The notes under the pieces are model-generated. The model worked only from the letters and a program-made list of their open reading frames with translations. It was not told where the DNA came from and made no database searches. The translations under genes were made by a program, and so were the position numbers. 64,000 bases of DNA from Apostichopus japonicus (taxonomy: Eukaryota; Echinodermata; Holothuroidea; Aspidochirotida; Stichopodidae), in the NCBI RefSeq assembly GCF_037975245.1, contig NC_092580.1:14607001-14671000 (forward strand), read 5' to 3'. This document shows, one piece after another, positions 1,485 to 45,106 of the stretch (positions within the stretch are counted from its first letter, which is position 1; every line of letters begins with the position of its first letter).

Positions 1485-4400
1485 GTGTCAAAAAGAGGCG
1501 GATTGGTAAGAACCCAGATGTGGATACTAGTTTTCTGCCAGACAGAGATCGTGAGGTTGGTCATACGGGACGAAAGCTACTATTTATAACTAAGTGCACG
1601 ATCAAAGCGAACAATTTTTTGGTTACAGTTTGCATTGTACGAGAGTAAATTGTCATGTGCCTTATGATTCCTCACTGAAGGATCGTAAAAGCGTGTTTGA
1701 GGCCTTGGCTTCACCATGGTTTACATGAATGTTGTACTAACTTTACTGTGAAAATGGCCTTGTCATGTTCTTTGCTGCATTTCGATTTGGTAAAGGCCAA
1801 AGGTCATGGAAGGTCACTAGTGGCCATAATAAGAAAACATAGTAAACAAGCTAGCTCAACAGCTACAGAGTTGGTGAATCTCATAGTTGTTTGTAGGTAT
1901 GTAGATGCCCCTTTTTGAGTGCTAGCTGTGTGTAAAAGTTCACAACAAAGAAACGCAAAGCCTCTAGACTTTCTGGTCATTCTTCGTAAGACTTTTATAT
2001 TGTACAATGTACCAATTCTTCTACATTGGTCCGTGATCCATGCTCAAGATAAAATAATCTGTTTCTTATATTTCTTTGCTAGGAAGAGGAGAATAGACAG
2101 CGAGAACAATTAAGAAAAGAATGGATCGCAAAGCAAGAGACCTTGAAAGGTGTGTGCCACAAATTTGAAACAGGCTCAAAATTATTGTGAATGGTGAAGA
2201 AGAATTTGAGAGGGCACTACACTTTCACCACCCATTTTGTCTGTAGTTTCTAGCCCTTTAAACTCCCAGTAACCGTATTACTTCAGTAAAATGTCACTGG
2301 TCGTCTGGGTGGCTCAGACGTAGTCAAGGCTGGCTGGTATCATGTTTGGACTAGTAATACTCCCCCTATTAAGTAGTCCTGATGATAATGTAAAAGTTTG
2401 AAAATGTGAAAAATTATTTCTGCTAAAGGTTGTACTTTCATGCAGTTTAAAACGACAGATCGAACATTGGCTTAGTGTTTTCGGTGACAAAACCTCTCAA
2501 TACTTTCAGTTTTCCCCGAGGTTATCATTTTAAATACTGCTCTTCACTTGTTGAATCACTGTGCAATGCAGTGGCTATCTATTCTTACTCTTTTGTTCAG
2601 TTTAGAGTTTCACAAAATTATCTAAAAATCTGTTTTGGCAGTCCAAAATTACTTTAAACAGCATTTCAAGTTGATATATATTGTTCTAACAGTTTGACAA
2701 AACCTTCCGTGAACTGCTTTCTAAAACAAGTTATTAATTACAATTGATCCAACTAAGGCATCACCTGAATTTTGTCACCAAATGAAATTATTAAGTGAGA
2801 TAGCAGGGTTTCCAATTGATTCTGAAAAATGTTCATACCAGTATCAATCACATATCAATATGCTTGGAAATTTTCAAGGCCTTATGACTTTTCTATCATT
2901 TCTTTTTAAATGACCAGTCATTATGGTAAGTTATTGCTATGGGATATGTCAGTATTTCTATAGGATCAAACATAAATCCAGCTCAATGCCAAGACATGCT
3001 TTAATGAAAAATGAAAATTCCCCCTTTTTACATTTTTTTGGCAGCTCAGGAAATTGAGATCACATACAGTTACTGGGATGGATCAGGTCACAGAAGAAGT
3101 GTTAAGGTAACCAGCAGCAAAGAAAGGGATATGGATTCAGAAGTAGAAGGGAGGGGGAGGAAGGGGGAAGGGGGAGGAGTGGATTTTGAAATGGAGAGGT
3201 GTGCCTGTGAAGTCAGTGACGCCATTTCCCTATGTGGTGGGGTCGTTCTCCCAGAAAAAATTGAAAAGTTAACATTTGAGATGTGAATGGTGTGTTCTGA
3301 GACATATTTAGGTTATAAATTAGGTCGCAGATTAGAAAGGCAAGAAAGTGTCAATTAATACTTTACATCTTTCGTGTGAGCTTCCAATAAGGGGAATTTG
3401 TAAACACTCCCCCACCCCCCCCACCACCATTGATTTATACCTGGGGGATTGGTGTCAGTTGCAGACAAGTTAACCTCATACATGAACTATTTATTTAACT
3501 TCAATTACTTTTCAGATGAAGAAGGGAGACACAATGCAGAGATTTCTCATGAAATGTCTTGAGAGTCTACGAAGAGATTTCCATGAGCTAAAGTAAGTTA
3601 TTGATATCATTAACGAGCGCTACATTTACATGCTACATAGGTAATATAATTAGGTCATTTTTCAGTAAGAAATAAATGATAGAGATAGTGTAGACTGATT
3701 AGCTGTCAATGACTAAACTAAAATCAACATCTCTAGTTGTGTGTATTCCACAGAAAATTAAATACCGAACTTCATAGCAAATGCCAAGAGAACAAGACAT
3801 GAAATTTGTTTGGACACGAAATGTTCCTCTGGAGGATTTAATGGTTCATAAACTTAGCCAAGCAGGAACCTCCAAATGATTGGTACCTTATACATCCATT
3901 ATTGAAAATGAGGGGTGTCTAGTTAATTGTGAGAGCTTGGTGGTCAAGGCAGTGGACTTGTGATCCAAGGCTTGCGGGTTCGAGTCCTGGCCAGATCATT
4001 ACGTTGTGTCCTTCGGCAATCTCCATTGCCTCTCTTCACTCAGGTGTGTAAAGGGGGGCCTGTGAGATAAACTGTCACTTGGGCGCTGTTTATCTGCCGC
4101 CATGTGGAGGGATTGTCTCTATGTTTGACAGGTTATCGTTGACCAGCAGGGTCATATTGTGATGCGCCTTGAGCACTGTTATCGTTGGATATGTCTGTGC
4201 TTTGTAAATCCTAAATATTATTAGTATTATTAGTAATTTTTGTGATTCCTTCATGACATGATCAGTGCAACACAAAGTTGCAACCTGATTCAGAATGCAG
4301 CTTGTATTTTTGTTATATTATTTTGTGCAGAATAGGACTAGAATTAGCTTATTGGAAGATAACTGGACTCTACTAAAATGAAAAAAATCATCAGTTCTTA

Positions 4401-7093
4401 TTGTTCAGGTTTTCAACTTGATGGTATAACAAAACTAAAGGTATAGCAGTGTAGTTAATTCTATTCAGAACAAGGATATGAGTATTTTACATTTGTTTCG
4501 TTTTTAAAATGTGACTTTAAACACTTTGCTTTATTTTATTGACAGTTTATTTCACGTTTCTTTTACAGAGCTGTTACTGTTGAACAGATGATGTACATCA
4601 AGGAAGACCTTATCATTCCACATGTAAGTAATAAAGAATTTTTGGATCACTGAAAAATACCTTAAAAACTGTATTTGCAATGTTTGATAAAATATGGTAT
4701 TTGCAAAAGACAGTGTTGGTTTTAAACCACAGACCTTGGAGGGTTTGACTCAAACTTCATCAAACAAGATTGCTAGATGAAGATACATATTAACTAAGAG
4801 TAAAAATTGGAGTTTTTTTCTACCTCTCTTTCCTTTTAGCATTACAGTTTCTATGACTTCATCGTCACTAAAGCCAGAGGCAAGAGTGGTGAGTATGACA
4901 GTTTTTGTTTTTATTTTGATATTTCTCAAAATTAGGAAAATTATTTTCCTACAGACTCTGGATTACTTTTCAAACATCTATGAATATTCAATGAGTAAGT
5001 TAATTAGTAGTGCCCTTAATATGAAATATGAGATATCAGGGATGGTTACCTATGACCTCACTCCTTCCCACCCCCCCCCCCGCTCCTCCACCCCCATTTC
5101 TTGAATGCCATGATTTTAGCACAGTGCCCAACCTATATGTGTCATTGATAAATTTGATGCCCTCACATATCTCCCAGTATATACTTAAGAGGGTTAAATT
5201 GTCAAAAAAAAGTGGAAAAGGGGGGATCTTGAAATATATGATCAGTAATCTTTGTGTGTTCAAATTTAACCAAACCTGATTCCGTTTTAATGTCTGTGAT
5301 CCTTTCCTCAAGTTTAAGGTAACAACTTCTTTGTCATTTGCTCATTAAGAAAGGAAAAATGGTTTCATTGTTAATATATATATATTATTTTGCCTCTTTC
5401 AGGTCCTTTGTTTAACTTTGATGTTCACGATGACATTAGGTTAGTCCAAGATGCCACCAAAGAGAAAGATGAGGTGAGATTTTAAACACAAATATTGAAC
5501 ATCTTGTTAAAAAGTATTTAAAAACACTGGTGACATAGTTTTTGAATAAGATGTGAAAGGTCTTGTTAAGTTTGGACGAAGGGTCCATGTTGCATAGTTT
5601 TGTATGAGGAATTAATGCTTGGAATCAATTTCTCTTAATGAAATGCCTTGTTGCCGATCCGCTTGGCATTCCAATTGTCACTGTGGTAACTATTTATCTT
5701 GCTGTAACCTTATAATTCACAAAGTAGGTTAGCACGGATATTTCCTTCAATTTCTTGTGTATCACTGTGCACTTTGCTCAGTTCAAAGCCATTTGCAGAC
5801 TAATCTGTTGTCATTTATTTGCCTGTCAATTTACCAAGACAAGTTCATTGGGGAAAGTGCTTTTCATTTGATAAGCCATTGAAGGCGCATACGTCAAGTA
5901 CTGTTTTTCTACATATGGTTCCGCTTAACATATCTTTTTTTTACCCTCTTCTGTGATAGTCTCATGCGGGTAAAGTGGTCCTGAGGAATTGGTATGAGAG
6001 AAATAAACATATTTTCCCGGCAAGTCGATGGGAACCATACGACCCAGAGAAGAAATGGGATAAATATACAGTAAGTTAGAAGTTTTTGCATTGCTTTATC
6101 AATCGATCTAACCAGCAGGTATGCCTTTGACCTAAATCAAATTTAGGTCATGAATTAATTTTGAGGGAGTTGAAATCTCCCTCAAAATATTTGCTATAAT
6201 GTCATCATACTGGGACCTGAATGAGTTTTGATTAGAGTAAACCTTAGAATGTGATTCAGTCCCACCTTACCAGCTTCTCGGCCTTTTGGCTAAGATCATG
6301 TGTAGTATCTGTTCCCTTCGGGAATGGTGATGCACACCTGACGATGATCACACAGTCACAGTCCCGATGCAAGGGGACTGGGGCTGAGAGCGGATCAGTC
6401 GTTTGGTAGTTTGGTTTTCGTGCCCAGGTTCTTTCCTGGGTGACTTTTTCTTAAAAAGTACCTTACCAGCCAGTCAACCACCTGGTTCAGAAAAAAGTAG
6501 ATTATGAATTTTGTATATTGCCTACTGTACTATTGATTGGATGTTTTAACAGATGGATGCTTCATATGTAGACATTTCTGGTATATTAGTTTTCCCATGT
6601 ATTTTAATATTTTTTAGTGATGGTAGAAGGTCAATCACATAAATCCTATATCTGTTAGCATTGCAGCCTGTAGGTTGAGTACAATATTACACTGAGCTCA
6701 ATAGCTGTAATGTAGGTAACCTTTAATAGTCAAGTCACACAAAGTATGAGTCATCACGTTGTGCAATTTTTAAATACAGTATGACTGTATACTGATAATG
6801 ACTGTTGTCTAGTCATGTTTCAAGATGTTCTGGAAGTCAATGAACATTATGTTGGGGGGGGGGGGGGGGGGGTGGAGTTATCAGACTTTGAAGCTCTCAT
6901 AACAGTATTCATGAGTTGGGCTCTTTATGAGTTTTGGCATAGAAGTCAGCTCAGTCAAAGAGGTTTCATTACACTACCCAACTTTGGGACAAAGCTTTCA
7001 CAAAGGTTACCTTCTCAGTTTTATGATACTTTATTATATTTGTACTTATATTTTATTTCCCATAATTCTTTGTTCTTCTTACAGATCAAGTGA
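1485..7093 (+). CDS. FAM50A: FAM50/XAP5 family protein, 3' part (9 exons)
   Basis: Nine exons: 1485-1555, 2083-2149, 3045-3106, 3516-3592, 4569-4623, 4840-4888, 5403-5473, 5960-6070 and 7085-7093. All have GT-AG borders and the phases agree at every junction, giving about 190 codons. The product matches the conserved XAP5 domain: [15 protein letters not shown], then [42 protein letters not shown], and the terminal block [20 protein letters not shown] followed by TIK and a stop. The last exon carries only ATC AAG TGA, and vertebrate FAM50A ends in nearly the same way. FAM50A is a nuclear spliceosome-associated protein of about 340 residues, so roughly the first 150 residues are outside the window. 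A U2-derived SINE sits in the last intron. FAM50A and FAM50B are mammalian paralogues, so the symbol means the family only. Confidence 0.95.
3929..4225 (+). repeat. tRNA-derived SINE in FAM50 intron 4
   Basis: The head has a tRNA-like internal promoter: an A-box-like TGGTCAAGGCAGTGG at about 3941 and a B box GGGTTCGAGTCC at about 3977. It is followed by a roughly 200-bp unrelated body and a simple ATT-rich tail ending near 4230. The body includes GCGCCTTGAGCAC near the 3' end, a motif common in invertebrate SINEs as I recall. The unit lies within the intron between exons 3516-3592 and 4569-4623. The tRNA fold is not intact, so this is not a functional tRNA gene. Confidence 0.7.
6275..6459 (+). 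mobile_element. U2 snRNA-headed SINE, copy 1
   Basis: Bases from about 6272 to 6315 match the 5' end of U2 snRNA almost base for base, including CTTCTCGGCCTTTTGGCTAA. The match then stops and an unrelated body of about 135 bp follows (CACACCTGACGATGATCACA at 6333 and onwards), ending near CTTAAAAAGT. An 11-bp direct repeat ACCTTACCAGC lies at 6264-6274 and 6460-6470. This is the target-site duplication expected from LINE-mediated retrotransposition. The body recurs in copies at 37353-37610 and 45981-46074. It sits in the last FAM50 intron on the sense strand. Confidence 0.85.
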
Positions 7094-16576: not shown

Positions 16577-19500
16577 ATGGCCCAAGCCAAGCAATTACCG
16601 GCGAACGAAAGAAGTAAGTTGCCATTCTTTTACTAAAACGTTACCTTTTGTACAGTTTGGTGGTCGACCCTAAGTAAGAAGCTGCGGCTTGTTTTGGCTT
16701 AGGCCAATATATAAGCCGTTGTAAAGTTAGTAGGCGTGTTGTAGTGTCTCTTCTTTCCACACAAATGTTACAAATAAACGTGTTCATAAATCATGATGAC
16801 CAACTTTTCGCATCCAGATCGGCATCATACAAGAGGTAAGTTAAGTGGAATGTAACTCTAACCCAGCAAGTGTAAATACTTTGGTACATCAACTAGCAAG
16901 AAGAAGTAGGTACGCAATGGTTTACTGTTGTACACACCTGTCAGCTGCTCGATGTAAACAAACATATTTCAAGGTCATTCCAAGATTTGCCTGCAGACAT
17001 GCATATTCGTGGGACAAAGGGTTGTTTTTGTTGTGTGTGCACAAAAGCCTCTAGTAAGTAGATAAAGAATGGAAGTTCAAAGTGAAAGAAGTGTTGAAGT
17101 CTAAATTTCTTTGCTAAAGGAATAATAGCAAGGTCTGTAGGATAATGAATATTCAGAATATTTGCAAAACAACTTTGTCATAGGCTTCAGGAGCAAATTT
17201 GTAAAAGCAGCCTAATTTTATTCCACATGATGCCTGGACTAAAGAACTGTCTACACTAGGATAGATCAAAGGAATTGGATCATATTTAAACAATTGTAGG
17301 TTTTGTGTAATTATAGCTTCTGCTCAACCAATTGCAATGGTGAATGGTGAGTATATTCATTCTTGAGCGATAAACTAATTCTTTCATACTGTTTTAAAGT
17401 TACTGTTTGTCATTGAAAAACCTTCATGGGAGAGGGAAGTGTAGCTATGTCAGAAGGCCTAATCTTTCAAACTTACCAGGATCTACAAGGTAGACTAATA
17501 GCTAGGAAAGAAAATCTCGCTACTCACATAATTCATGATATACAGTAGGCCATCAGACAGTATGATGTCATTTAAAAGTTAGTAATAATCATCGTCAAAT
17601 CCCTTTTAAGCTGAAAGCTGTATCCATGCCTATTTGTAAGATGACATTCATTTTGCAAATTATGACAACTGCAACTGGTTTACTCTCGCGTGCCAACATT
17701 CTCTGTGAAGATTATTGAATAGATGTGCAGTGTATTCTGACCAAAGTATCTAGTACCATCATCAGTACAAAGCAGAGACTGCATTAGTGTCTTTCAGACA
17801 TTGTTGTTTCTTAAAAATGGTTAAATTATGTCTTGGCATACCACAGTTGCTTTGTAAAGTAACTTTCTGTTGGTAATTTAAGTACTTTATTTTAATTTTT
17901 TGCTGGATGTTATAGATTTCTAATTTCTTATGAAAGTACTGTGGTCATTGTAATATTTTGATGTTTTTGTTAAATAATTGTTTGTGAAACCAGCATGAGA
18001 AAGAGTTACTTTCCCTTTTAGAAAGCCTAACAGGGTTACATACTTTGTTATATCATACCCATCTATTGTATGCTTTGCAGGACGGGACACAAGCTCATTG
18101 ACTCAGCTTCATTTTGCTGCCGCCCAGGGTCAGTTGCTGGTTCTACACAGCCTGATTAAGAATGGTGCTTCGGTTGATGTCAGGTCCTGCGATGGGTACA
18201 CGCCTCTTCACGAAGCTTGCGCTGGTGGTCATACATACTGTGCAAAGAATCTGATCAAGGCCGGAGCAAATGTGAGATTATATGAATGAGAAGTCTAAGT
18301 TGAGGGAGACATTGTACAAACTATAAACTGATTACTTCAACTGTCAATTGGTTACTTCTGCTCCTTCTGCTTCTTCTCTAAGAACTAGTCTGTGCCTTCC
18401 CTTTGCTTTGAGCAGTCAAAAGAAACCTTGGCTCCACAAAAATTGATGGTTATTTACCGCAAGCAGGACAGAGTTTTAAAGGTCTTCATATTGTCCAAAA
18501 CAACCAAATTTCTGTTCCAGTTCAAAACCAGCTTTGAAAGTCATCCAACAAATGACAAATTGTTGACATCAAATTCAGATTTCATTGTTAATCATTTCAT
18601 TGTCTAAAAATACAGATACATTGATATCACCCTCCATCAACTTAGAAATACTGAAATAAAACAAGAAATATTTTGTGAAGGCATATTTTGCAATATTTCA
18701 TTTTGTGACTAATGATTTTCAGATGACCAGGGTATTTTCTTTCTACATTAATAATATTGTATATTTAAAAGAACTTACTGAGGCAGTACATTTATGGATA
18801 TATAATAAATTATGTTTAACATTACTGCAGCTACAATGGCAAATCTGTTTTATTGTCGTTGAAAATATAGACCATGCCGTCATTCCATTTCCTCATGTAC
18901 TTAATGTAGGTAAATGCAACAAGTTGTTTTTGGACGACACCCCTTCACTTTGCTGCAAGTTCAGGGTCTGTTGACTGTGTGCAACTCCTTCTAGAATCAG
19001 GTGCTAGGGTCAAATCAGAGGACTCCACCATCACCCCTCTCCATTATGCAGTCATAAAAGGTTTGGTACTCTCTGTTTTTATTGTTCATTATGATAGGTT
19101 TAAGCCACTTCAAAGGTAAACATTAAATGTTTTGATTTTCATGTGAAAACAGCAGCTTAAAGGAAGTGCAGGAAATTTTTGGGCATGTTGTGTTTGAGCT
19201 TTGATAAAATCTATACAAACCAAAGAGACATAACTGTTTGTTGATTGATAATTGCTTTCAAGTATTTCTCATAAACTCCATAGCTATTTTCTCAGTTGAA
19301 TTGTTAATTGGGTTGAGCTCAAGGGTCAAAATAACTTCAGTCATTATGGATACATGGAAAAGGTTTTTGATTCTCCTCTGTCAGTTGATGAAGACAGATG
19401 AAAGCAAATTACAAGTTACATCAGCGTTACCAGATGGTTTGTAGGCGGAGACAATTTGTCAACACTGAATTGTAAACGGGCCTCTGTCCGAAAATGTATG

Positions 19501-22500
19501 ATTATGGGTACGATGTGACATATCATTGTGTACATTCAACCATATATTAACTGGCAGCTGTACACATGTATGAAGACCATGAAATTTGACAAGTTAATGT
19601 CATGCAAGCTCTGAGGAAATGAACAAAGAAGGCTGCATAAATTTCTAGTGGAGAGGTTATTTTATATATTGTCATACTCTCCTGTCTCAAAAGCCTTGTA
19701 AACATTATACTCTAGAAGTTGGAATCCAGTCTATAATCATTGGTATACTTTGACACAACAGATAGGGACATAACCTACATAGGTTGTCAGAGTTAAAGAA
19801 CAAGTTTACATTTTTTAGCAGTAGGGTTACATCATCATGAGTACCAGTACAAGAAGAATTCCCTCTTGTTATGAGTACCAGTACATAACTCTAAGTGTGA
19901 GTACAAGCACATAGTCATCAGTATCACAGTCAGATTTCAAAATGTCCAGAATTCAAGTAAGAGTAGAAATCCAGGAGGGTGTGTACACAGCAACTATGCT
20001 AAAATATGTGCAAAGACTCAATACAAGTCTGTTTAAAAAATATAAAAAAGTGATGAAAGAGAATTTTTGTGGCAATTGGATAGAAATATCCAAACCTTTC
20101 ACCTGGATACTTTCTTACAGCTTGATGTATGTCAGGAAAACAGCAGACTAATATTGGTAGATTTGTTTAAGTATTAGGAGCTACTTGCATTGTGCAGCAA
20201 CGATATTATTGTTTCCAGTTGATTTAGTTGTGTTACACTCTTGTTAACAAGTACAATGTGTTCCATATGATTCTTCTCTGACGCAAGCGAGGGTTTAGTG
20301 AGCCTTTACCATAGCCTAATCACAATATTATGTACAGGTCTACATAATGATACTCGAGTTCCTGGCAGTGTAACCGGAATGTTTTCTTTCGTCTCGTAGA
20401 TAATTATTTTCACATTTTCTCCACAGGTAACCTAGAGTGCACTAAATTATTAACAGAAGCCAAATGTTCTCTAACTCAAATGGATTCTTACTATGGGACT
20501 TGTCTTCATGCCGCAATAATGGCCAACCAGTCAGACTGTAGTCAGCATCTCCTTGAAATAGGTAATTTAAAAAAAAAAAGAGAATCATGTTTCTAGAATG
20601 TGATGACTCAAAAGAAGAAGATGTTCATTCTTGTTTAGATATAAGTTACTGTACTTCACATACTTCACTGCTTGGCCCAGTAGAGCTCACATTACTACAA
20701 CAGAACCCGATATTTAATGCTTTTTTCAACTGTCTGTCTGAAACATGTATTGCCAGATCAAATAAAATCAAACCCTCTGAGGTTACCACAAGAGCAATAG
20801 GTTTGTCTAGAAGCATTTCAAACTTCTATTGTATGTTGATATTACTGGAATAAAACTTTGGAGTACTTTTAAATAATAATCTGAAATATTCTATTTGTTT
20901 TGGACAACAAAAGACTTCTCAAGAAAATAACCATCTGTTGTGATGTTAATACAATAAACTTATAAAATGCTTTGTGCAGAATTGTATTTCAAATAATAGA
21001 GAAGTTGCAATTAAAAACATTACAGCCCTAATTTAATGAGTGAAGTTATATTGTTCTGTACATTGTGATGTCAGAGAAAGACCTGTGAAGTGTGCTAAAT
21101 GATTCCACAACACCAAGAAGTCATTGAGGTCTTTCTACATCATACATCATATTTGACTTATTTTCTTGAATCATTAATTTGAATAATTCATATGATCCAA
21201 ATTAACTGATCTGTTTATGGATGAACACATCATCTCTTGGTACATTCATTTACCCTGAAAACAAGATCTGTCTGGAACAGTTTGGTATACCTGTTGTTTA
21301 TTTCTGAGCAATAGCCTAGCCTAGCCTTGATCATGTTTTTTGTTACTATCTGAACAATCAAAGGTAAACAAGTAGAGTTTGATAATGGAACACCGTTTTC
21401 TTTGCATTGCAGGTGCTAACCCGAATACCCCTCGGCCGAGGGATCTCCAAACACCTCTTCATGCTGCTGCTAGTAATGATAATAAAGAGATAGTTGAAAT
21501 ACTTCTCACTTATGGAGCTAATCCACATCTCAGGGATAGAAATGGAGAGAAGGCAATTGACCTAGCAACAGCCAATCAAGTCACAGCTCAGGTTTTACAA
21601 GAATTTATGAGTAAGTGATAGCACACAGTATAACTATAAAAGTAACTTTAAAACGATCGTTAAGACACACAATTCATCTCAGAAGCCATCCAACATTTTC
21701 CAGCCACACCACCATTGAAACGTCTCCCCCTTAACATCCATCTAGCCTCCGAGTCCTTTCATCCAGCACCAGACCATTCTATGAAGCCAGCCACCACTCA
21801 TTGCCTCCCTTGAAAATGCTACTTTTGAAATTGCTTCTCTTCTTTGTCAGGCCCTCAAAGTTCACATTTTCATACTCTCCAAAGAACAGTCCTCAAACCT
21901 TGGAATCTCATTGTTTCCAGTCAGGGGCTTTTGCCCCTGGCTTGCTGAAGCCTCTTACGGCCGAAACAGCATATCACGAGACATATCGTATTGTGAATGT
22001 TGATGGTTAAGAGCAATAGCAAATACAAATTATCTTGTGCTTATTATGTTATCCTTAAATAAACATCTACTGGAAGGAAGGCTATTCAAATCTCCAGACA
22101 GGATTAAGAATAATGTAGTAAATAGACTTCTTAGGGATAACACAAACCAGTGTGAATGCAGCTGTGAAGTTGTTCCATACAATAGCATGGAAAACCTTTC
22201 CTTGCTTCAAACTTCAAACCTGCTATCTATCATCATATCAGCGCCTTTGTGGGTGGTAAATGGTCATAAGTTGTTATACATTGTAATACAATCTGTAACA
22301 ACTTATGTATTGGTTACTGTTTAAGACGATCATTTGAAACATGTCGAGGAGTATATGATATGGTAGGCCTCCAGTGGCCATTTTGTATCAAGAAAGCTAT
22401 TTGTTGGAATTCACAACCCAAGCTGTTTTGAGTACGACCTAAAATGAGAAGGTGTAGTAGAATATTACTGTGTAACGCAAACTGTTAAAGTTTGTCATAT

Positions 22501-26691: not shown

Positions 26692-28047
26692 CTAATCAGT
26701 CGTTTTATTACCTGTCGTATTATCGCGTCTTCGAAAGAAACTCGAACAGAGCAAGAGCTTCGCGTGGCGTCTAATGCGTTTATTAGTTAGTATGTACAGA
26801 AAAGGATTTATCGATGCTTTTGCAAACAAAAGGGCTTCAACTGCATATAAAATTCCTTCTAACCCATTATAATTGTATCCTCGGAGATCTGCGATTACTA
26901 ATACAATCCAAAATGGCAGCCAACAAATCACAAATATCACAACAATCAGGAAAAGTTGTCTCCCTGCTTTTGCTAGTTTTCTCGCTCGAATCCTCGGATT
27001 TTCGGTGCTTTGAAAAGAATTTCCTTGCCAACTAGCAATCGACTTAGGCTTACTGTCTGTTTGAATGTGGCTTCTACTCGGATCCTGTGAATTTACAAAG
27101 GCATTGTTTTTACTTAGATGATTCAAAGTAGTTGAAACTGAAATTGCTCTAACATTATTACTTAATTTGCTTGTATTTTCCCGACCTGTAGAACGTTTCC
27201 CGTCAAATATGTTATTGCTTGTAGTAGGCCCATTTGGCAAGTTTATGACCTCACAATCTTTTAAACTTCCATGCATAACGTTTCCCGCCAAACTGGATGT
27301 AGTCTGCTCGTCGTCTTCCGTGGGTACACAGGTGGTGGTATCCCCTGTATGATTGCGGGAGTTACGATTTCGTTTGAACTTATCCAATTTGCGTTTGAGT
27401 TTAACAAACACTACCAAGTTTGATATAACTAGAGTAATGAACGGCAAGACACAATTGACTATTATTGTGACAAAACCGATTACTGTGCCAAGAAGATGTT
27501 CAGCGCAACGCGTAGAATAAAACTTTGCAGTATTGTACAGTACAAAATCGGATAGTACTAGAATGATGCTTAGCAACCACGTAATAATCGAATATAGCAA
27601 AGTCTTCTTCCTGTATTTATGTATTGAATATTTTATGGGTTCATTCACCAACCGAAAACGGTCCAAAGTCAACTGGATAGTAATTAAAATATTCATATAG
27701 TGTAAAACAAAGGTACAATAATAGTTAATGGTAAATATTGTACGGATTGGCGCCACTGTCACCATTTGAAGTATGAAGATTGGAACGGCGTAACATCCAA
27801 TCAAAATATCCACAACTGCGCGATTGAATATCAGAATATTGAAAGAGGATTTGTGGATTTCACGACTGGTGCAAAATACCAGTAAGATAAAAAGATTCCC
27901 TACGACAGCAGTAAATCCAATCAGTACAAATAGCGTGATGAATGCGATTCGAACGAAAGGCGAAAATACCAAAGAATAATTTGTAGAAATCAGTAAACTG
28001 ACTCTAACACAATCAATGTCCATGGAACGGTTATCAGTCGCATTCAT
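26692..28047 (-). CDS. Rhodopsin-class (class A) orphan GPCR, intronless
   Basis: One 451-codon frame with seven hydrophobic segments. The N-terminus has N-glycosylation sequons at N2, N6 and N23. Class A landmarks: GNLFIL in TM1 (N51), D80 in TM2, C111 at the start of TM3, W157 in TM4, C181 in loop 2, P202 in TM5, CWLPFW (375-380) in TM6 and NPFLY (414-418) in TM7. The third cytoplasmic loop is long (about residues 216-360), as in muscarinic and histamine receptors. Two departures are clear: the DRY motif is DRF (129-131), and the aminergic ligand aspartate position in TM3 (C111+7) is Met118, which argues against a classical amine ligand. An intronless gene suggests a lineage expansion or retrocopy. 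Ligand and subfamily are not assignable. Confidence 0.93.
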   Translation of the reverse strand: MNATDNRSMDIDCVRVSLLISTNYSLVFSPFVRIAFITLFVLIGFTAVVGNLFILLVFCTSREIHKSSFNILIFNRAVVDILIGCYAVPIFILQMVTVAPIRTIFTINYYCTFVLHYMNILITIQLTLDRFRLVNEPIKYSIHKYRKKTLLYSIITWLLSIILVLSDFVLYNTAKFYSTRCAEHLLGTVIGFVTIIVNCVLPFITLVISNLVVFVKLKRKLDKFKRNRNSRNHTGDTTTCVPTEDDEQTTSSLAGNVMHGSLKDCEVINLPNGPTTSNNIFDGKRSTGRENTSKLSNNVRAISVSTTLNHLSKNNAFVNSQDPSRSHIQTDSKPKSIASWQGNSFQSTENPRIRARKLAKAGRQLFLIVVIFVICWLPFWIVLVIADLRGYNYNGLEGILYAVEALLFAKASINPFLYILTNKRIRRHAKLLLCSSFFRRRDNTTGNKTTD

Positions 28048-31000
28048 GTTGGCAAATTGTTAAGAGAACGTATACTGAATTTCTAAATTAGATGCGATAG
28101 ATATACTAAGACGAAACTTTAAATTTCAATGTAGCCAACAACTGCAAAAGCTCAGCAGTAACCAATCGAATAAATGGACATCATTTGTGATTTATTGATG
28201 AGTTCGTATTGTAAATACACACCATATAAACAAACTCGTGCTTTGAAATCAATATAATTAAATCGCATAACCGAAACATGGACATCTCTATATAGTCATT
28301 TGAAATGAAAAATATAAATACAAAAATACGAATAATCGCGTAAACTTGACTTTTCGACGTATATAGATGTATAGCGTATATACTCCTTTTCTCATCCATT
28401 GCATAGAGCAGAGGTACTCTACACTGATTTAAATTGAATAGGTAATGTCCCTTTTTATATCGCAAAAAAAAACAATAATGGTTTCGTTATAAAGCGCATA
28501 ATTAGCAAACTACATTTTCAATGGAATATGTTTTATCTTCATCTTGAAAGGCTTCTATCGATTTTGTACACATTCATATGTATGATGCTGTCGTAAAATC
28601 GTGCTTAATTTAGAAACCATATTGTGAAGCAGATCATAAGGAAATCGACAAAGCCTATACGCCTTTCTCTCCCTCTTACTCTCGCTCTCTCCAACTCTCC
28701 CTCCACGTCTATTTCTGTCTCTCTTTGTGTTATAATAGCTTAATATGGATGCTAGATGACAAGTCCATTAAGACACAAAAGGATACTTAGTGAATACATT
28801 CATGCAAAACCATAAACCTTCGGTTAAAATTCTCTATATAGCCTAGAGCCTGAAAGGAAAGAAACTATACATTAGGATCTTTTTCACTGTTCTGGATCGA
28901 TTGTCACATATGTTTCTTCCGGATATTGTGCAAATTGAAAGATTTTTAGAGATATTCTCTAACTTTTACATATTTATCTGCACAGGTTTTTTGCATTAGA
29001 TAAGCAGTTTGCTAACAGTTTTTCTACTCTCTCAGATTGAAAGATGTAGGAGGAATTGGGTTATTTTTGTGCAAAAAACTTACATATCTTTTTCGAACAA
29101 ATTGTTCAGTCAAAATGTTGAGTGAATCAATGCACTGTTTTCAAACCAATATTATATACGTTCTGAAAATCATTGTGAAGGCGCGTTGAGCAGTTGTAAT
29201 CATGTTTTTGCAAAGATGCCTCTCAAATAAAAGCTTTCGTGCAAAAACAAAAGTATTATGTAAATGGTAAAGCTCTTGTTTGATAAGATCTTTGGGATGT
29301 GATGCTGCACACGTATTTCGAAATATAGTTTAGAACAAGTTTATACCGTTCGGGTGGATACAATGTTCTTACTTATTATAGTATAATGCTCAGAACATCA
29401 TGTCTGTAGCAAGAAAATGTTTACTTTCACCAGAAAAAAAGAGAGAGAAGAATATAAAGCAAAGCGAAGTTAAGAGATTTTATCTCTCATTATTACGTAT
29501 TATAAAACAACATTCTGCATGACGTACCATGAAATCCTCTCAAAATGATGGAACTATTTTGCAATGAGGGAAGAGGTCGATGTAACTGGCAACCCTATCT
29601 TGTTACCTTTGCTTCTCCTTTAAAAGGAAGAGTTCAGGCGGAATTTATAAGTCTTGATATGTTAGAATGCAAAGGGCAAAAAAAAAGAAAATTTTAAGTA
29701 CAAGCGATTATTCATAACTACGCCGGTTTTGAACATATATTCACTTTTAAATATGCTCACTTTCTATATAGCTATAGACTAAACTGATGACGTCATCAAC
29801 TCCCCCATTGCTGGTATAATGTTAACGTTTATACATTGTTTTACATATTTTAATGACTCAGTCAAAACACATTCTTTTAACTGTATAAAAATGCATCGCT
29901 GGATAATAATCAATACCGTTTGTCTTTGGCAAATTTGCATATTATACAGAACTGTTATAAACATGTCAAATTGAGGCCATAAATGTCATGTTTTGCCCTT
30001 GTGTGTCCTTTTTTAGGGGGGGGGCTGGGGGATGGGTGGGGGAGAGGATATATAACCTATGAGGAGCTGGTTTGTGTACTAAAATATACAGTCCAGTCAC
30101 ATTGATTAATCACAGCTTTTTAAAGGGTCATTTCTCAAAATATAATATGTTTTATAGAAATTCAACCTGGATTATATCAATAGATTTACATGGTCTGCAA
30201 CATAATTTTCAAAATCAAATATTTGTGCGTAAAGTCATCCTTTTAAATGTCATAACCGTTGCTCGATTGCTCAGAGTCTGGAGAAGCTTTGTCCTACCGT
30301 CTTTTTAAACCGACTTCACTATACGATAGCCTAGCCTATAACTTTATATGTAGGAATTAAAGAGGAGAGGCAGGGGAAGAAAGGGGGGAATGGGTATGGG
30401 AGGAGGATGGTAGGGTGGCTATCATGATCATTAACAGCCATTGCAATTATGCATGGTTATAAGTCATGGCATAATGTTAGACAAGACAAATAAGTTGATA
30501 GAGTTTGCGCAGAACAATGCGAGCACAAATAGCATGAGCCAAAGTTATAGGATACATGAGTTTGGCTATATATACTTAACACATTAACCTGCTTAAAGAC
30601 CTTTTCTCATACAATATTTTTTGAAGATCTGCATTAAATTGACGTATGTGTCGCATTCACTCATCTCTACCATGTTCAATCCGATTCCCATATATCTCAT
30701 TTCGTTTATGTTTTTCTCTATTCGTTTTTCCAGTTTAGACATTTTTTCTCAGAGGTCTATAATATACGTTTTGTCAATTGGCTTAGTAGGAAATATATAA
30801 GTAGAAAATCATATTCATGACATTTAAGAGACACTTGAACAAAAAGTAGCCGACGCAGAAGACTAATATCTTTAAGTGCATTTGAAAGTGTTTATTAATT
30901 CATTGCGCCTTACATGCAAATCTTGACCCTAAAAATGTCAAGAAAGATGTAGGCCTAAAATTACAATAACAAATTTTCAATTTTGTGTTATATAGCTGTT

Positions 31001-36269: not shown

Positions 36270-39200
36270 TTAAGCTTGGACCAGACGGTGAATCAATGCC
36301 GTTATTATGGATGCCACTAGGAGAGATACAGCGGCGCGTCTAGCCTCCGATGAGTTGAGATCGCCTATGGAATATTTATACAAATGAATGTAATTTATCA
36401 AATAATCAAAATCAAAATGCAAGAAACATATAGTGTACATGTCAATGCAACCAAACAACTGTCTTGGAGAGATCCCATGCATGTACTTTGGACTCATTTT
36501 TTATTGTGTCATTTTTAATTTGGATAGCTTATTTTGTGATATATTGGCTACAATTAGTATAAGGCCCCACTGTTGGAAGATCCAAAATTGGGGATTTGGG
36601 GTTCGGAGTGGTAGTAGTGGTGGGAAGGTGAGTTTTGTCTTAATCTGAATTATTAACATACAATAGCATATTTAACAAGAATTTGTGTACCCCTCCCACT
36701 CTCTTCCCACTCCCATCCTACTCCCACTCCCCCCCCCCCACACCGATGGAAGATCCAAAATTGGGGATTTGGGGTTCGGAGTGGTAGTAGTGGTGGGAAG
36801 GTGAGTTTTGTCTTAATATGAATTATTAACGTACAATAGCATATTTAACAAGAATTTGTGTACCCCTCCCACTCTCTTCCCACTCCCATCCTACTCCCAC
36901 TCCCCCCCCCCACACCGATGGAAGATCAAAAATTTGGGATTTTGGGTGCGGAGTGGTGGTAGTGGTGGGAAGGTGAGTTTTGTCTTAATATGAATTATTA
37001 ACATACAATAGGATATTTTACAAGAATGTGTGTACCCCTCCCACTCTCTTCCCACTCCCGTCCCACTCCCACCCCCCCCCCTAGAATCATCTTTGTCCTC
37101 CCTGTCCATCAACTATAGTTTTAGTAAAGCAAGTATAACGCTGCGTAGTCTACTTGTCATTTGCTCTGTATATCATATTGTAGTGGTATATTAGCACATT
37201 ATATGAAAACTGTTAAAAGCTTTCGAAAGTAGTTCACTGAAGTGTCTGGTCCATTAATTCTCAGACATTTAGGATTGTTAAAATAGAGTATATAGAAATA
37301 TTTCAGTGTGGGTTCATTACAATTTGAGCAGCAGTAAAATGCTTGATGAAATTTATCGGCATTTTGGCTAAACATCATGCATAGTAACGATTCACTTTCC
37401 AACGGTATCGCGATACACATCTGACGATGATCACACAGTCACAGTCTCGATGCGAGGGGAGAGATTGGGGATCAGGGTGAATGGCAGTTACGTCACACTG
37501 TCACAGTCTCGGTGAGAGGGAGGGGACTGGGGTTGAGGGTGAATCAGTTGAGTCGTTCGGTTTTCGTGCCCATGCTCTATCTTGGGTGACTTTTCCTTTG
37601 GATAGCCATTCCTAATGTATTATGCAGCAGGAGCATGTATTTGTGACGGGAATACAGTAAACAACGATGTATACCTATGGTACATTTCATAGAACATATG
37701 TTTCCGTAGACCACCGTACTTAACTTTTTGGTACCCTCTTTTGTGCAATGAGCATGATATTGAGGTGATGTATTAACTGTCAAAATGAACGGCCTGTCGA
37801 CATTACTTTTGTTATATTTAATCTGATTTTGGAATTGGGGTGGGAAAGGGGGGAGGGGGGAGGTAAACTTTCTGAAAATTCATGAAAGGAAACGGATGTA
37901 ATTTGCTCTAAGATGTATGATTTTTCGCTTCCTGAAAGGGAAACTATGGCGTCAATTTTACCGATCTTGCATAATAATGAGGGGGGCCGCTCATTGCAAA
38001 GTCGGCAATGACTGCTACGCGGATCGCAAAGCCGGTTTCATTCGTCCAACACGGCAGCATACAGAAACGTTGTACTCAAAGCCGAAGCCAGAGTGATTTG
38101 AGCAGGTTACGCATCCGGAATCTATGCATACTAAGTTCTTCAATACTCCCCCTCTTTACCTTTAGGGAAACATTTTATACTGCAGTTTTGATTTGCTTGA
38201 AACTTTCTTCATGCATATGCCTCTACTTAAATGGATGGTGTTATATATGATGCATGCATGGAAGATGAATTGCTCGTGCTGAAAGTCGTTGGTTTTATAT
38301 TGTAAAACTATACATGTTATTCAACACTTGGCGGTTATTTAACATTCTTACCGGAAGGTTCTGGTTCTGATTTCTCTACTTTCTCTTCTTTTTCTGCGAG
38401 AGAAGGAAATTTAAAAGACGATACGCATATACGATTTCAAATTAATATGTGTCTGTTTCATGTTAGCATAGTTATCGTATTATACCACATTAACCATACA
38501 ATAAGGAAAACACCACTGGACGCATGATTGAACAATTTATGATATATTTGCTAAATTATATAAGGCCATATACCGGAGGAAGATCCAAAATTTGGGATTT
38601 GCGGTGCGGAGTGCATGGTGATGGGAAGGTGATTTTTGTCTATGAATTATTAATATACAATAGGACATATACCCTCATTGCATGAGCTCAGCTATACATT
38701 TTACAAGAATTTGTGTTCCCCTCCCACTCTCATCCCCACTCCCGTCCCAGTCCCCATCCTTAGAATGCTTTTTGTCCTCCCCGTCCTTTAACTAGTTTTA
38801 GTAAAGCAAGTATAACATTGCGTTCCAGAGTATATTGTCACTAGCTATGTATCTTATTGAGGAAACACGTGGCTCTGAATTAATTAAGGCATTTGTGAAC
38901 TCATGAGTCAAATTCATATAATCCCTAGTCCGACTATTCTATAGGTTTGGCCCAAAACGAAAAGTAAATCTTTGTCTTTATCGACTTTTGAGTATAAGTT
39001 TTACTCAACCTGTTAATGTTGGTTAGAGTGACGTCATGCAGTATCTGCTCCCCCACCCCCACCCCACCCGTGTCCATGCATGTTCTATCTCCGGTGAAGT
39101 TTCTTTATCTTTAAAATACTTTCTATAGCAAATCTGGAGGTAGCATCGATTTCCTTTAACTTACGAACGCGATGCATGGTTGCAACTCACAAAAGGATAA

Positions 39201-42200
39201 TATACTATTAATAAAGACTATATAGGTAGGTATAAATTGGCTAAAAGTTTTACTTGGGGCTTGTGGGGTGGGGTGGGGTGGGGTGAATCGATTCCATCCA
39301 ATGTTGGTTTGAGGTTCTGTGTTTAGCATATTAGGTACACAAAGAGTATTTACCAGGTAAGGTTTCTTTAACCTTTAATTGGGTGGTTGAGAGAGTGGAC
39401 CCATGTTGGTTGGTAACCTGACATTGGTAAATACCATCATCGCTCGGCTGAAAAAAAGAACAAAGTAGTTTTTTTTTTATTTAGACAAGGATTAGAAAAG
39501 AATATAAGAACTTTCTCAGATCAATGTAATTTTTCTAAAAGGATAAATAGTCAACATTAGACGTTTACATATTAGTTATTAAAATTTCAAGTTAATGACA
39601 TCACAGGTGCAATGACATACCTGAAGATGTGTGAACTTTTTCTGAATACATTCGTCAAATGTGATATTTTTGGGAGCATGTATAAGTTGCCAACTGACAT
39701 GTTCTAAACACCATATGATAGCTGATGGTTTGGACTATCATGGTTCAAATCATTGTGGTTGCTCTTGTCGCATAATTCATCCCAATTTACCAACGAATTC
39801 CTCAAACGCCTTAAGTCAACCTGAACGGTTTGGCTTCAAAAGCAGTAGTCTAATTTATACTCTTGAATATCCGATCATCAAAAACGATTAATTTTAACTC
39901 CAAACATGCCAAGAAGTACCCACATGTTGGTGTTTGTAGACAATTTCTCTCCCCCCCCCACCCCTCCCCAATCACGGTTGATCTATTTTGACGAATGTAC
40001 ATTTCGTTGATTGTGATACTTTATCAATAAGAGTGTACAACTGCAACAGCTCATTCTTTTGGACATTAATCCTAATCTAATTTGGATATAGAACGCAGAC
40101 AGAATTATCTATAGACAATCTATCTTAAAGGAATACTCGACATACCATGACCCTTTTTATCAAGAGGGCGTTTTCACCCTGTTGTTGCAGGTGATCGGTT
40201 GGTATTATTGGTTCAGCGTTGTAGAACCACACGTAGGAATCACTTTGGTCGTTTGTCTCGCATCGTAAATTAACATCGGACAGTTTCCGAACTGTTGTAT
40301 CTGAGTCCAATTCAGTTGTCAGGATAGGTGGCGCTGTTTAGAAGACATAAAGCTGACTATTTTATGAACACACATAATTGTCTACGTTGTGGCCTAAGTA
40401 TTTGTGACGCTGACGCATGTATAAGTGCATGCTTATTATTTGACCTTTATTCTAGAATCCTAAGAAAAGGAATGAAACGGGGACAAATGATACTAGTTCT
40501 TAAGAATGCTTTATTCATTCATTCATTCTAATGTATGGTATATATTATATTAGGCCCATGTTAGTATATATCTGTGTGTTGGTCGAACCTAACACGCATG
40601 TTCGAAAAGCAGGAACCTCGAAATCAGCACATATAAGACGTATACATAAACGCATTCTACCCTCTGCAGGTTGATCCATTCATGACTGTAACTTACAAAT
40701 AACTGTCAGAAGGGTATTTGCGGTGTCGGTGTTGCCGTCTTTCTTTCCAGTACAAGTGTACTCTCCGCTATCTTCAGGTTGAGCGTCTGGAATAATCAAA
40801 CGTTCTCCCGTTTGACCTATGACCTTCGTTGGTAATTCTGCACCTGTTTTCGTCCAGCTTAGACTAGGCGCAGGTCTGAAACACAAATACTCATAAGTTA
40901 TAGTACGCATAACCCTATAACCATAACCATTTGCTTCGATTTATAGGAGATGATCATAAAAAAAGAAGTCAGACAAAACGAATACATTTCTAGAGGTAAC
41001 TATTATGTAGGCTTGATTACGTGTATTTAGCCAAACAAGATATTATTATCTCTGCTTTGATATCTCCGTAATCTCCTTTACAAATATATCTCATTGAAGA
41101 GATTCGGAATAAGATCGCATAGGCCTATAGTCCCATACGTTCATTATTGAGAAAATATGAAAAATTTCACGTAATTATCCGACTTCAGTGACACATTACA
41201 TTTACAAAGAGAACCAGAATAGGTTTTTTAATGGAAACTTGCCACTACTTTTGCATGTCGTCGGACTACACTTCTTACAAAAGTTACACTTTTAAGATGA
41301 TATCGCTAATGTTCCGTATACATACGTGTTTATCTTACGGGTGCTTGTAATCAAACGTGTAAATGCATTTCTTACCTCCCAAAAAAGAAGCACTCCATTG
41401 TTGCAATTTGCCCTCTTTTTACCGTGATACTTTGAGGTAAATCAACTTTCGAAAGACTTTGAGGTGTATTTCCATCTGTGGTCGGAGAACGACGTAAGCG
41501 TTGAAAATGACAAAGCTGTGAACAGTTGTATATTTAAGTCACACCCTCAAACAATTAAAACCGTTAGCAGTATGAACTGATGCAAGCATCGAGAGTGTTA
41601 ATACACCGTTACCCGGTGTACCATTACGTAGGGCTAACACCTTTTAAGATCAAACAGTTAAATTAAGTATTTGCTTTGTTTTGTCTGGGGACTGTCATTT
41701 TGTAAATCCGTGATATCATTGTGCCATGAGCAAAAATCTGAAACATTTTACTTCCCCCCCCCCCCGGTTTTTTTGTTGTTGTGGACATTTTCACACTGGA
41801 CTGAATTTTACCAGTGTTGACATTAAAAACTTCAATTTGGCATCATTATGTCATGCTCGGAGTTAAAACGTTTTCGATTCAGCCTTTCCAAAACTCATCT
41901 CCATTAGAGAAAATAAACATTTTCATAAACGAATCCAAACATAAATAAAATGCAACGCAAGTGGCTGGATGATGTCATATTTTAGACTTGAACAAGTCTT
42001 CCTCCTTATGAGTCAAAGAACATTAAACCTTTGATATATCACCCTCAAATGGTATAGAATATTTCTTAGCTGTTCGGGGAATCATCACAGTTATCTCTCT
42101 ATCACATATTGACCAATGGTGATGGTTGTTTCTGTGTCTCCTTAGTTAGATTTTTTCTTATGTCAAACATATCTAGACCGTTCCAGCCTGATGATATCCT

Positions 42201-43912
42201 TACCTGTTACACTTAGCCTGCTTCGTATTGGATTTCGCTTGTAAGTTAGAAACAGAGCACCTTCATTGTCGAAACTACTTGCCACTGAACACTGATATTC
42301 GCCAGCATCGCTTTTCTCCAAATAGGCAAAACAAAGTCTTCCATCTCCCATTATAACTCTCCGTTCATCTTGAGGTACGTTTCCCATTGTTCCCACAGTC
42401 CAGATGGCACTGATTCCTATTCAATTTAAGCAACATTTGGTAAATAAAACAGAAAATTAAACGTTCCTACAGGTAAACGAGTCCTTTTGTAGTTCGGCGT
42501 CTCCCAACTTGTCATTTCTTCTTTGTGAGACACATCTATCCTTTAAAATCATATATATTTAAGATGTATAAGTCGTATATACGCTACGCCGCGACTAATA
42601 TATATATGACGTCATAGACAATGACGAAGCTACCAGGACTAATGTAACGTGTAAACCAGTCTTTCATATAATCAATACAACCGTGATGATGTGGGAGGTT
42701 AAATCAGCCTGTATTAGTTATCAAGATGAAAGTTTGTTCTTCCTTCCATTTCATTTTAGGGTACTTTATTTATTCGTTGATTTTCGAAGACGGTATATGT
42801 CTGTCGCAATCTGGCAACTTCGTTACTTTAAAATTTCAATTATCTTATAGATTTGGACTTGAGAAATGATAAAGTGTAATTCCCCCCCCCCCCCAAAAGA
42901 AAGGAACTAAGGATAAACAAAGAACGTATGAAGTTTAGTTTATCCTAAATATCTAACTAACCTGGATGGGCATCGGGTGGATGACAATCCAAGCAAACAC
43001 CTGAAGACTCCTGCTCTTCAACAATAATAAGTTGACTCGTGATGGACAATTCATCAATATCTGTTAAACAAACACAAAATAGAAAATCAGAAGTAGGAGG
43101 CAGTTAAAGGAGAAGGAGAAGTTCAGTTTAATTATCCATTTAATCATAACTAATACTTACAGGCTATGCTGAGTGTGGCATTATTGCTGATTATCTTCCC
43201 GAAATCATTGCCAACGATGCAGATAAAAGTATCTCCATCATTCTGTTTATTAAGTTCTCGTATTGTTAAAGCCCCATTCTCGTGGATTTGATATTGCCCA
43301 TCATTTGTAATATTTTGTCCATTGTGCATCCAGGTTATCTCCGGGGTAGGTGAACCTTCCACGGTGCAGGGAAAGTTTACTTCTCTCGCTAAATTTATGA
43401 GGATAGTTTGATCTGTTGGTTCGACTGTAAGGTACAGGAAACTGTCCTCTGCACCTATTACGTATCGAAGAAACAATGTATCGGAGGTTAATATCATCTC
43501 TGAAGGAATACTGTTTAAATCAACGGGTTACAAGGTAACATGAATTTATTAGCCATATACATAAGATTACATATCCCTGAATGTATTAGCCATATACATA
43601 AGATTACATATCCCTGAATGTATTAGCCATATACAGAAGATTACATATGCCTATACGAATCTCCTGCCCCTCCTCTCTTCATCGTTCGTGCCCAATAGAA
43701 GACAAATCAAGTCGTGTAATCCTCAGCTGTTTATGGAAAGCTATATTTAACATTTAAAGTTCCGAATACGGAAGAAACTGTATGACTTCGTCACTTCCGG
43801 TAGACTGAAAAAAAATACCCCGACAAAACTAACCCTTGTTAGATGATGCTGCGGCGATGATTGTCATGCAAATGAATTTCACCGCCAAGGAACGCCGCTG
43901 ATTAATCGCCAT
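36270..43912 (-). CDS. Four-Ig-domain L1/hemolin-like cell-surface protein (10 exons)
   Basis: Exons in reading order: 43912-43834, 43454-43161, 43060-42962, 42416-42204, 41475-41376, 40875-40697, 40333-40146, 39447-39354, 38393-38352 and 36364-36270. All are GT-AG and in phase, giving 460 residues. Exon 1 is a signal peptide. Ig1 has C56, W68, C105. Ig2 has C147/C150, W163 and DAGEYQC ending at C200. Ig3 has C257, W269 and DSGEYTC ending at C303. Ig4 has C346, W357 and SDDGIYQC ending at C393. Ig2 carries the C-HPP...QDERRVIMGDGRLCFA pattern seen in L1CAM/neuroglian Ig2. No Ig5-6 or fibronectin exons were found; instead a Glu/Lys/Pro linker leads to GDLNSSEARR and a hydrophobic tail AAVSLLVASIITALI ending HRLVQA. 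That tail is either a GPI signal or a membrane anchor. The terminal exon is assigned by phase and could be wrong. Confidence 0.85.
36575..37091 (+). repeat. Tandem repeat, three copies of a 172-173 bp unit
   Basis: Units 36575-36747, 36748-36919 and 36920-37091. Each begins GGAAGATC, passes through a GTGGTGGGAAGGTGAGTTTT segment, and ends in CCCACTC-rich sequence and a poly-C run. A diverged single copy with the same flanks lies at about 38577-38770; both are followed by TTTAGTAAAGCAAGTATAAC (near 37120 and 38798). All lie in the last intron of the Ig gene. Confidence 0.9.
37353..37610 (+). mobile_element. U2 snRNA-headed SINE, copy 2 (diverged)
   Basis: The head is a worn U2 5' end (ATCGGCATTTTGGCTAA at about 37355). 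It is followed at 37408 by the same body as copy 1 (CACATCTGACGATGATCACA) and ends with the shared TTTTCGTGCCCATGCTCTAT and CTTGGGTGACTTTT. The central part of the body (ACACAGTCACAGTCTCGATG and following) is tandemly duplicated within this copy (about 37430 and 37495). It lies in the last intron of the Ig gene. Confidence 0.8.
37930..38190 (+). repeat. Dispersed repeat, copy A
   Basis: TTCCTGAAAGGGAAACTATG (about 37930), TTGCAAAGTCGGCAATGACT (about 37994) and ATTCGTCCAACACGGCAGCA (about 38040), through to the TGCAGTTTTGA end near 38190, are all matched in order by 51905-52090 plus 52500-52632. The other copy carries about 400 extra bases in the middle. It is not coding. It lies in the last Ig-gene intron. 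Confidence 0.75.
43547..43653. repeat. 37-bp tandem repeat, three copies
   Basis: Units starting TATTAGCCATATACATAAGA at 43547, 43584 and 43621. The first two are identical over the period and the third has two or three changes and a partial end. It lies in intron 1 of the Ig gene. Confidence 0.9.
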
Positions 43913-45106
43913 GTTGGATGTATACTCTGAAAATAACACAGAACAATAAGACAGAAGGAGAAATGAGATGAAAACAAATGTTTAATGATTTGTGTCTAAA
44001 TATTGAGGCTATATATAATTGTTAGTCATGAATGCCTGATATTTTCCTAGTCATTTCACCCTTGCTGTTTTGTCCTATGGCAGTTTGTCGCGTACTTAAT
44101 AGCTAAAAGAACAGTATTTTCTTTTATGAAATTTAAATTTCAGCAATTTTATTTGCAACCAGCTGGAATATATTTTTTCAATATTAAGAATTTTCGACTT
44201 TATTTCCACTATTTTAGTACATCCACAAATTTGGCATAACTAACATTATATATCTCAGTCCATTGACCATGTTACCGTCTACATTCATTAACTCAACAGT
44301 ACAGCGTCAGAGTCTGGTATTATACATGAGTTTGTGGCCATTAGTAAGCAAGAGTTGAAAGATGGAATGTTCCACAAATTACATCTTTCAACGAATGAAA
44401 TATTTGCACTATTGCACGAATGGAAACCATTCATTATTTGTTTTATACAACACCTTCAAATTTGGATATAATTGGATGTAAAATGCACTCATGCAACAGA
44501 TGGTTTTGTACAGACAGGTTCTCTGCTCTCTTACCATTGAAAAAAGTGCTATCAAAAAAGTATACCACATGGTTCTTTTTCGTAGCGTGCAATAGAGCGG
44601 ATTTTGCATGCAATCGACGAGCAATTGACCAATCAAATGGCCGGAATATAATTAGGTGTTGTATAAAGCCTTATAACGGTAAAACCTATTCGTACGGAAA
44701 CACAGATGTTTACCGGCACCATTAGAAGTTCTTGTTCATGGTGACCTAGTAGGCCTGCATTAACCGTATATACGTATTCGTAATAGTTCGAGATCTCAAA
44801 TTCACTAATATAGGCCCTACCGTCCTTACAGTAGCTCTCGATAACTGGAAAGCCTAACATTTTATCTACATGTATAGGCACACTTAGGCCTACAGACTTT
44901 AACTTGGCCTGTATCCCTACACACGTATTTTTGACATGATGCGGCCCATGAGGATCAACACTAACACTGTAACAGTGTCACATACATTCATTGATAAACG
45001 CAGACTACCGTTCCGGTTTTGATCAGCCAATCAGAATCGAGGAAATAATTTCAGTGTCAGTTCACAGCCACACCCCCCCCCCCACTAAAAAGTACCTTCC
45101 TGCGCG

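Follow-up and report, generated by a model that had tools for sequence, protein, structure and literature searches.

A gene of Apostichopus japonicus for a four-Ig protein resembling the Ig1-4 head of contactins, with a possible GPI anchor

The gene and its four Ig domains

The stretch of Apostichopus japonicus DNA analysed here (the window) comprises 64,000 nucleotides of contig NC_092580.1, positions 14,607,001 to 14,671,000, and carries on its minus strand a gene for a protein with four immunoglobulin (Ig) domains, which most resembles the Ig1-4 head of contactins; positions below are counted from the first letter of the window. The gene was rebuilt from the sequence as ten exons (43912-36270) with nine GT-AG introns, all in phase (intron phases 1,1,1,1,2,1,0,1,1), and its 1383 coding bases, stop codon included, run from an ATG at 43912 to a TAA at 36270 and specify a product of 460 aa. 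A Pfam search with this product gave an I-set match (E 1.8e-46), and the eight canonical cysteines (four pairs) and four tryptophans are all present. An earlier reading made from the letters only (the sequence-only reading) had proposed ten phase-consistent exons, and all of these were recovered at the same minus-strand places with an open frame of 460 aa; its signal peptide is likewise matched by a signal-peptide-like start, as assessed by eye and hydropathy only. The exons are listed here with their matches in PDB and Pfam and with the E-values of a local Ig hidden Markov model (HMM):

Exon 1, 43834..43912 (-): start codon and signal-peptide-like start MAINQRRSLAVKFICMTIIAAASSNKG
Exon 2, 43161..43454 (-): whole Ig1; PDB and Pfam matches, local Ig HMM E 6.2e-18
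Exon 3, 42962..43060 (-): first half of Ig2 (CHPP); PDB match, no local HMM match of its own
Exon 4, 42204..42416 (-): second half of Ig2 (QDERRVIMGDGRLCFA) and beginning of the long Ig2-Ig3 linker; PDB match, local Ig HMM E 2.9e-07
Exon 5, 41376..41475 (-): remaining linker and first half of Ig3; PDB match, local Ig HMM just E 0.39
Exon 6, 40697..40875 (-): second half of Ig3; PDB match, local Ig HMM E 1.8e-09
Exon 7, 40146..40333 (-): first part of Ig4 with WFYN (WXXN motif); PDB match, local Ig HMM E 0.00082
Exon 8, 39354..39447 (-): end of Ig4 with IYQC motif; PDB match, local Ig HMM E 2.2e-07
Exon 9, 38352..38393 (-): acidic stalk, 42 nt, phase 1-1; acceptor in the best 0.4%, donor in the best 0.5%
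Exon 10, 36270..36364 (-): hydrophobic C-terminal tail GDLNSSEARRAAVSLLVASIITALIHRLVQA, possible GPI (glycosylphosphatidylinositol) signal; the least certain exon

An acceptor-like site precedes exon 1 (7.9 bits, first exon base 43926), and a 5' untranslated exon may thus exist further upstream, while exon 9 can be skipped in frame because of its 1-1 phase. Besides the canonical cysteines there are three more, one in the signal-peptide-like start (C15) and two in Ig2, where C147 and C186, from exons 3 and 4, could add a disulfide between strands B and E. Tandem repeats are found in intron 1 (37 bp, 3 copies, 43541-43652) and in the last intron (172 bp, 2.9 copies, 36574-37081), and an AATAAA lies at 35685 on the same strand as the gene.

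The window was searched for further domains with the local Ig HMM (42 seeds) and a fibronectin type III (FN3) HMM (9 seeds), applied to the 2266 stop-to-stop pieces of at least 20 aa on both strands. Ig matches better than E 0.01 were confined to exons 2, 4, 6, 7 and 8, and no additional Ig domain rose above noise in the window, including 36 kb downstream and 20 kb upstream of the gene; the best FN3 match among these pieces had an E-value of 1.9, with none stronger, and as a control the halves of a left-out FN3 domain scored 2.7e-6 and 1.4e-7. This agrees with the exact count of four Ig domains in the sequence-only reading, although a half-domain Ig exon elsewhere could escape the scan, since exon 5 reached E 0.39 and exon 3 gave no match. 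A regular expression for the Ig F-strand motif matched in exons 2, 4 and 8 and also at 4293 (+) and 10785 (-), while a single pattern of the FN3 type matched at 50897 (-); these three outlying matches were taken as chance because there is no significant HMM match at any of them. Continuation of the gene into further Ig or FN3 exons in the window was set aside, as the HMM scan was empty above noise.

The same results bear on the possibility that only part of a longer contactin-type gene is seen here, its other exons lying elsewhere, or that the gene is an incomplete copy in decay. In favour of this, six Ig domains together with FN3 domains are the norm in contactins and L1 proteins. Against it, no Ig or FN3 match rises above noise on either side (with the proviso on half-domain exons), a G protein-coupled receptor (GPCR) gene follows downstream on the same strand, and the frame has no stop or frameshift and its splice sites are usable, so we regard a fragment or decaying copy as highly improbable.

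Relatives of the Ig1-4 head

In the PDB comparison, which covers the best 60 of 197 matches, the top match was contactin-4 Ig1-4, colinear over residues 49-410 (E 1e-45, 159.5 bits), from which it is clear that the Ig exons jointly are not a chance product. It was followed by contactin-5 (156.5 bits), contactin-2 (149.5) and contactin-1 (140), and after the contactins by neurofascin (134.1, second chain 96.2), Robo2 (121), Dscam (112.4) and DCC (100), where the scores for neurofascin, Robo2 and Dscam are each the sum of two stretches. Hemolin reached 76.2 bits (E 1.9e-20), and when hemolin itself was the query, neurofascin ranked first after hemolin. When each domain was compared separately with 42 domains from nine proteins (Ig5-6 from just three of these), the top match had the same chain position for all four, being CNTN1 Ig1 for Ig1, CNTN2 Ig2 for Ig2, CNTN2 Ig3 for Ig3 and DCC Ig4 for Ig4, the last followed by the Ig4 domains of hemolin, L1CAM, CNTN2 and NFASC. 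Same-position domains occupied the first five places for Ig2, the first four for Ig3 and the first five for Ig4, and for Ig1 just ranks 1 and 4 among the ten best listed matches. The Ig2 motif (C-PP / DER / G-L), which the sequence-only reading had taken to be of the L1CAM/neuroglian type, is indeed present, but it is not peculiar to L1, since it also occurs in Robo1 Ig2, the second-best match for Ig2.

A horseshoe arrangement of Ig1-4 is recognised by a long linker together with the Ig4 motifs WXX(N/D) and (hydrophobic)(Y/F/L)QC (PMC5045292). The Ig2-Ig3 linker of the four-Ig protein is long, measuring 57 residues from Cys to Cys. ROBO1 has 43 and NCAM1 46 at this place, and ten comparison proteins of the horseshoe type (contactins, four in number, neurofascin, L1CAM, neuroglian, hemolin, Dscam, DCC) range from 49 to 56; the other two inter-Ig linkers measure 42-45 in 13/13 proteins. 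We take DCC to be of the horseshoe type and ROBO1 and NCAM1 not to be. Both Ig4 motifs are present as WFYN and IYQC, with WXXN in Ig1 too. L1CAM, neuroglian and hemolin are of the horseshoe type yet lack (hydrophobic)(Y/F/L)QC by the pattern used, and this motif is thus a sign rather than a rule. The horseshoe-type Ig1-4 of the sequence-only reading therefore has its sequence signs in place, and Ig1-4 would be folded back.

With regard to known systems, the four-Ig protein shares with the contactins (CNTN1-6) the colinear Ig1-4 match, the horseshoe signs and perhaps a GPI anchor. Contactins have six Ig and four FN3 domains, and those of vertebrates are GPI-anchored (PMC9633819), whereas we found four Ig domains and no FN3 match above noise in the window, the gene lacks an Ig5-6 match there, and identity is at most 30%. 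The L1 family (L1CAM, neurofascin, neuroglian) shares the Ig2 motif and the Ig1-4 horseshoe and differs in having six Ig domains, FN3 domains and a transmembrane segment with an ankyrin-binding tail (PMC5045292, PMC9633819). Horseshoe Ig1-4 modules also occur in Dscam and Sidekick (PMC5045292). DCC has one too, and its Ig4 is the best match for Ig4, but the overall scores of this group are lower among the best 60 of 197 PDB matches. Hemolin has the same four Ig domains and no others, and a horseshoe-type linker, but it groups with neuroglian and its Ig4 is without the -YQC motif by the pattern used. Hemolin, known from moths, is soluble and immune-induced, and DCC, Dscam and Sidekick are long multi-domain receptors. 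A seven-Ig shrimp hemolin has been published (PMC10559889), and in PMC4553588 the words 'only in Lepidoptera' refer to X-Tox peptides and not to hemolin. No four-Ig contactin-type protein was seen among the papers listed by literature searches, which covered mostly open-access articles.

Trees were built from 13 proteins and from 12 (without Dscam), after an earlier set of 11 (without contactin-1 and NCAM1), and groupings chosen after inspection of the 11-protein tree were compared by the approximately unbiased (AU) test. The four-Ig protein groups with the contactins, none of them from an invertebrate, with support 89/94 (13 proteins) and 92/94 (12 proteins), while hemolin and neuroglian group together (100/99). 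The AU test rejects hemolin alone as sister or orthologue, at p 0.004 (13 rows) and p 0.006 (12 rows), and weakly rejects a grouping with hemolin plus neuroglian (p 0.031, 0.049). The sequence-only reading had named the protein after hemolin, but hemolin as the nearest relative is not supported: since the trees reject hemolin as sister, 'hemolin-like' suits the layout and not the nearest kin, and the two are probably not closely related.

Several observations weigh against placement with the contactins. The L1CAM, neuroglian, contactin-1 and NCAM1 rows are unverified sequences, the 11-protein tree left the four-Ig protein unplaced, it sits on a long branch (2.2-2.4 changes per column) with identity at best 30%, and neuroglian Ig5 nearly equals the best match for Ig1 (36.1 vs 37.3 bits). 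In addition, two competing groupings pass the AU test, i.e. the four-Ig protein with the whole L1 family (p 0.091, 0.129), and L1 family plus contactins excluding it (p 0.109, 0.123). The contactin placement is thus suggestive, not conclusive.

The first of these groupings corresponds to an L1-family protein that was shortened in an event separate from the origin of hemolin, the ancestry favoured in the sequence-only reading and compatible with any reading of the tail. The Ig2 motif also fits this origin, but its log-likelihood is lower by 12.3 and 7.5, the groupings with hemolin alone or with hemolin plus neuroglian are rejected, and contactins score higher in PDB, which makes it a rather improbable origin. 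The second grouping would suit an origin beyond the L1 family and contactins, with this horseshoe Ig1-4 protein standing closer to DCC or Robo, for instance, as would the leading place of DCC Ig4 among the Ig4 matches and the second place of Robo1 Ig2 for Ig2; contactins nevertheless come first in the best trees and in overall scores, and we consider an outside position quite unlikely. The L1 family and contactins including the four-Ig protein reach p 0.252 (13 rows) and appear in the best 12-row tree at 63/28. The placement inside the L1/contactin group given in the sequence-only reading is therefore admitted by the tree, which does not settle the side, because the groupings with and without the four-Ig protein both pass. 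From these comparisons we infer that the gene goes back to a contactin-like ancestor and that Ig5-6 and FN3 were either lost on the way or absent from the outset.

The C-terminal tail and the proposed protein

Exon 10 lies where the sequence-only reading had put a hydrophobic C-terminus, and its product is hydrophobic, but the exon has no homology support, and a loose rule for such tails did no better than chance. Counting both strands and three phases, the window has 1413 candidate acceptor reads, of which 91 pass this rule. At that rate the 27 acceptors of compatible phase between 39354 and 30000 should yield about 1.7 chance tails; a single one of these 27 passes. Under a strict rule, set after seeing exon 10 (15-mer with mean hydropathy at least 2.5 and no charge), 4/1413 reads pass including exon 10, two of the other three being neighbouring acceptors of one open frame. 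The codon score of exon 10 is attained by 36/1413 candidates, exon 10 counted, and exon 10 alone combines this score with the strict rule. The tail it specifies has small residues (N433-S435) followed by a hydrophobic stretch (A440-I454) of 15 residues flanked by RR and HR, which fits a GPI signal by the usual rules, and GPI anchoring is possible on this pattern.

Against this stand the acceptor of exon 10 (4.1 bits, in the best 15% of AGs, compared with 0.4% for exon 9), although that of exon 4, an exon with homology support, ranks lower (21% vs 15%), and the stronger phase-compatible acceptor at 37931 (10.0 bits), from which phase 1 leads into a soluble tail. A different frame of exon 10 has nearly the same codon score (0.172 vs 0.175 for the frame used), a wrong frame scores higher than the correct one for exons 1, 4 and 7, and the score of exon 5 is negative; the codon score is a weak witness, as other frames score near or above those used. 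Furthermore, HR near the end is atypical for a GPI signal.

Two other readings of the tail follow from these data. In the first, the gene encodes a soluble four-Ig protein that works like hemolin, being secreted and binding surfaces or partners; it would end in a different last exon, or by reading on past exon 8 or 9, with exon 10 unused. The acceptor at 37931 and the number of chance tails expected under the loose rule are in its favour, as is read-through at the exon 9 donor, where the protein would end after GKNVK; exon 10 is alone among the 1413 candidates in uniting an uncharged hydrophobic stretch with a codon score resembling that of coding sequence, albeit by a post hoc rule and a weak score, and we judge the soluble form unlikely. 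In the second, exon 10 supplies a transmembrane helix and a six-residue inside tail, making a short single-pass membrane protein. The 15-residue stretch between RR and HR would suit this, but 15 residues are short for a helix spanning the plasma membrane, and contactins, the best-matching family, use GPI, so that a membrane-spanning form is very unlikely.

Taken together, we favour, with a probability of roughly 0.5, a free-standing contactin-type recognition head of four Ig domains, probably GPI-anchored. The gene would then encode a small cell-surface recognition protein that amounts to the horseshoe head (Ig1-4) of an adhesion molecule of the contactin type. Once the signal peptide is removed, Ig1-2 would fold back onto Ig3-4 via the long Ig2-Ig3 linker, and the acidic stalk of exon 9 would lead to the C-terminal signal of exon 10, which a GPI anchor attached near S435 or N433 probably replaces. 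The head may bind a partner on another cell, as contactin and neurofascin heads do; these pair via Ig1-2, and the horseshoe is described as being often both required and sufficient for cell-cell adhesion (PMC9633819). By analogy we infer recognition or adhesion as the function, with a hemolin-like immune role also possible.

The four-Ig protein is not a new kind of protein. We tentatively, and with some doubt, raise the idea that a free-standing Ig1-4 horseshoe arose a second time, on the contactin side, as a counterpart of hemolin on the L1 side, GPI-anchored and with an extra Ig2 cysteine pair. If true, the horseshoe head would be a self-sufficient recognition unit that was cut free more than once in animals; confirmation would mean that the Ig1-4 horseshoe can be used by itself in a lineage distinct from the one that produced hemolin, and would provide a natural minimal contactin head, useful for testing the contribution of Ig5-6 and FN3.

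Other features of the window

A scan for bacterial promoters and terminators (43800-44600), a tRNA search and an Rfam search of the window gave nothing bearing on the four-Ig gene, and when viral contigs were scanned with the spliced protein, a pattern fitted 28 stretches, with no relative among them. Two in-phase open frames lie at 34860-33724 (-), with a donor at about 34377 and an acceptor at 33895, and may be another gene, with no Pfam match above cut-off. The strong acceptor at 33895 was provisionally set aside as the start of a last exon of the four-Ig gene, as it also joins a closer open frame in phase; because of this join to the frame with the donor at about 34377, it may belong to another gene.

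The GPCR gene (26695-28059, -) is a single open frame of class A (7tm_1, E 2.8e-30) with a long third inside loop, and its best PDB matches (best 60 of 503) are neuropeptide FF receptor 2 (1.3e-14) and the histamine H3 receptor; it reads DRF at a position where DRY is usual. An open reading frame at 3008-3283 (+) matches XAP5 weakly (E 0.0008, which misses the curated cut-off), perhaps owing to composition, and a short U2 small nuclear RNA match at 6270-6353 (+) scored 48.8 vs a gathering threshold of 46 over 84 bases of the 192-position model and is likely an incomplete copy. Finally, ankyrin-repeat exons occur at 17999-18286 and 21376-21615 (+), perhaps as parts of one gene.

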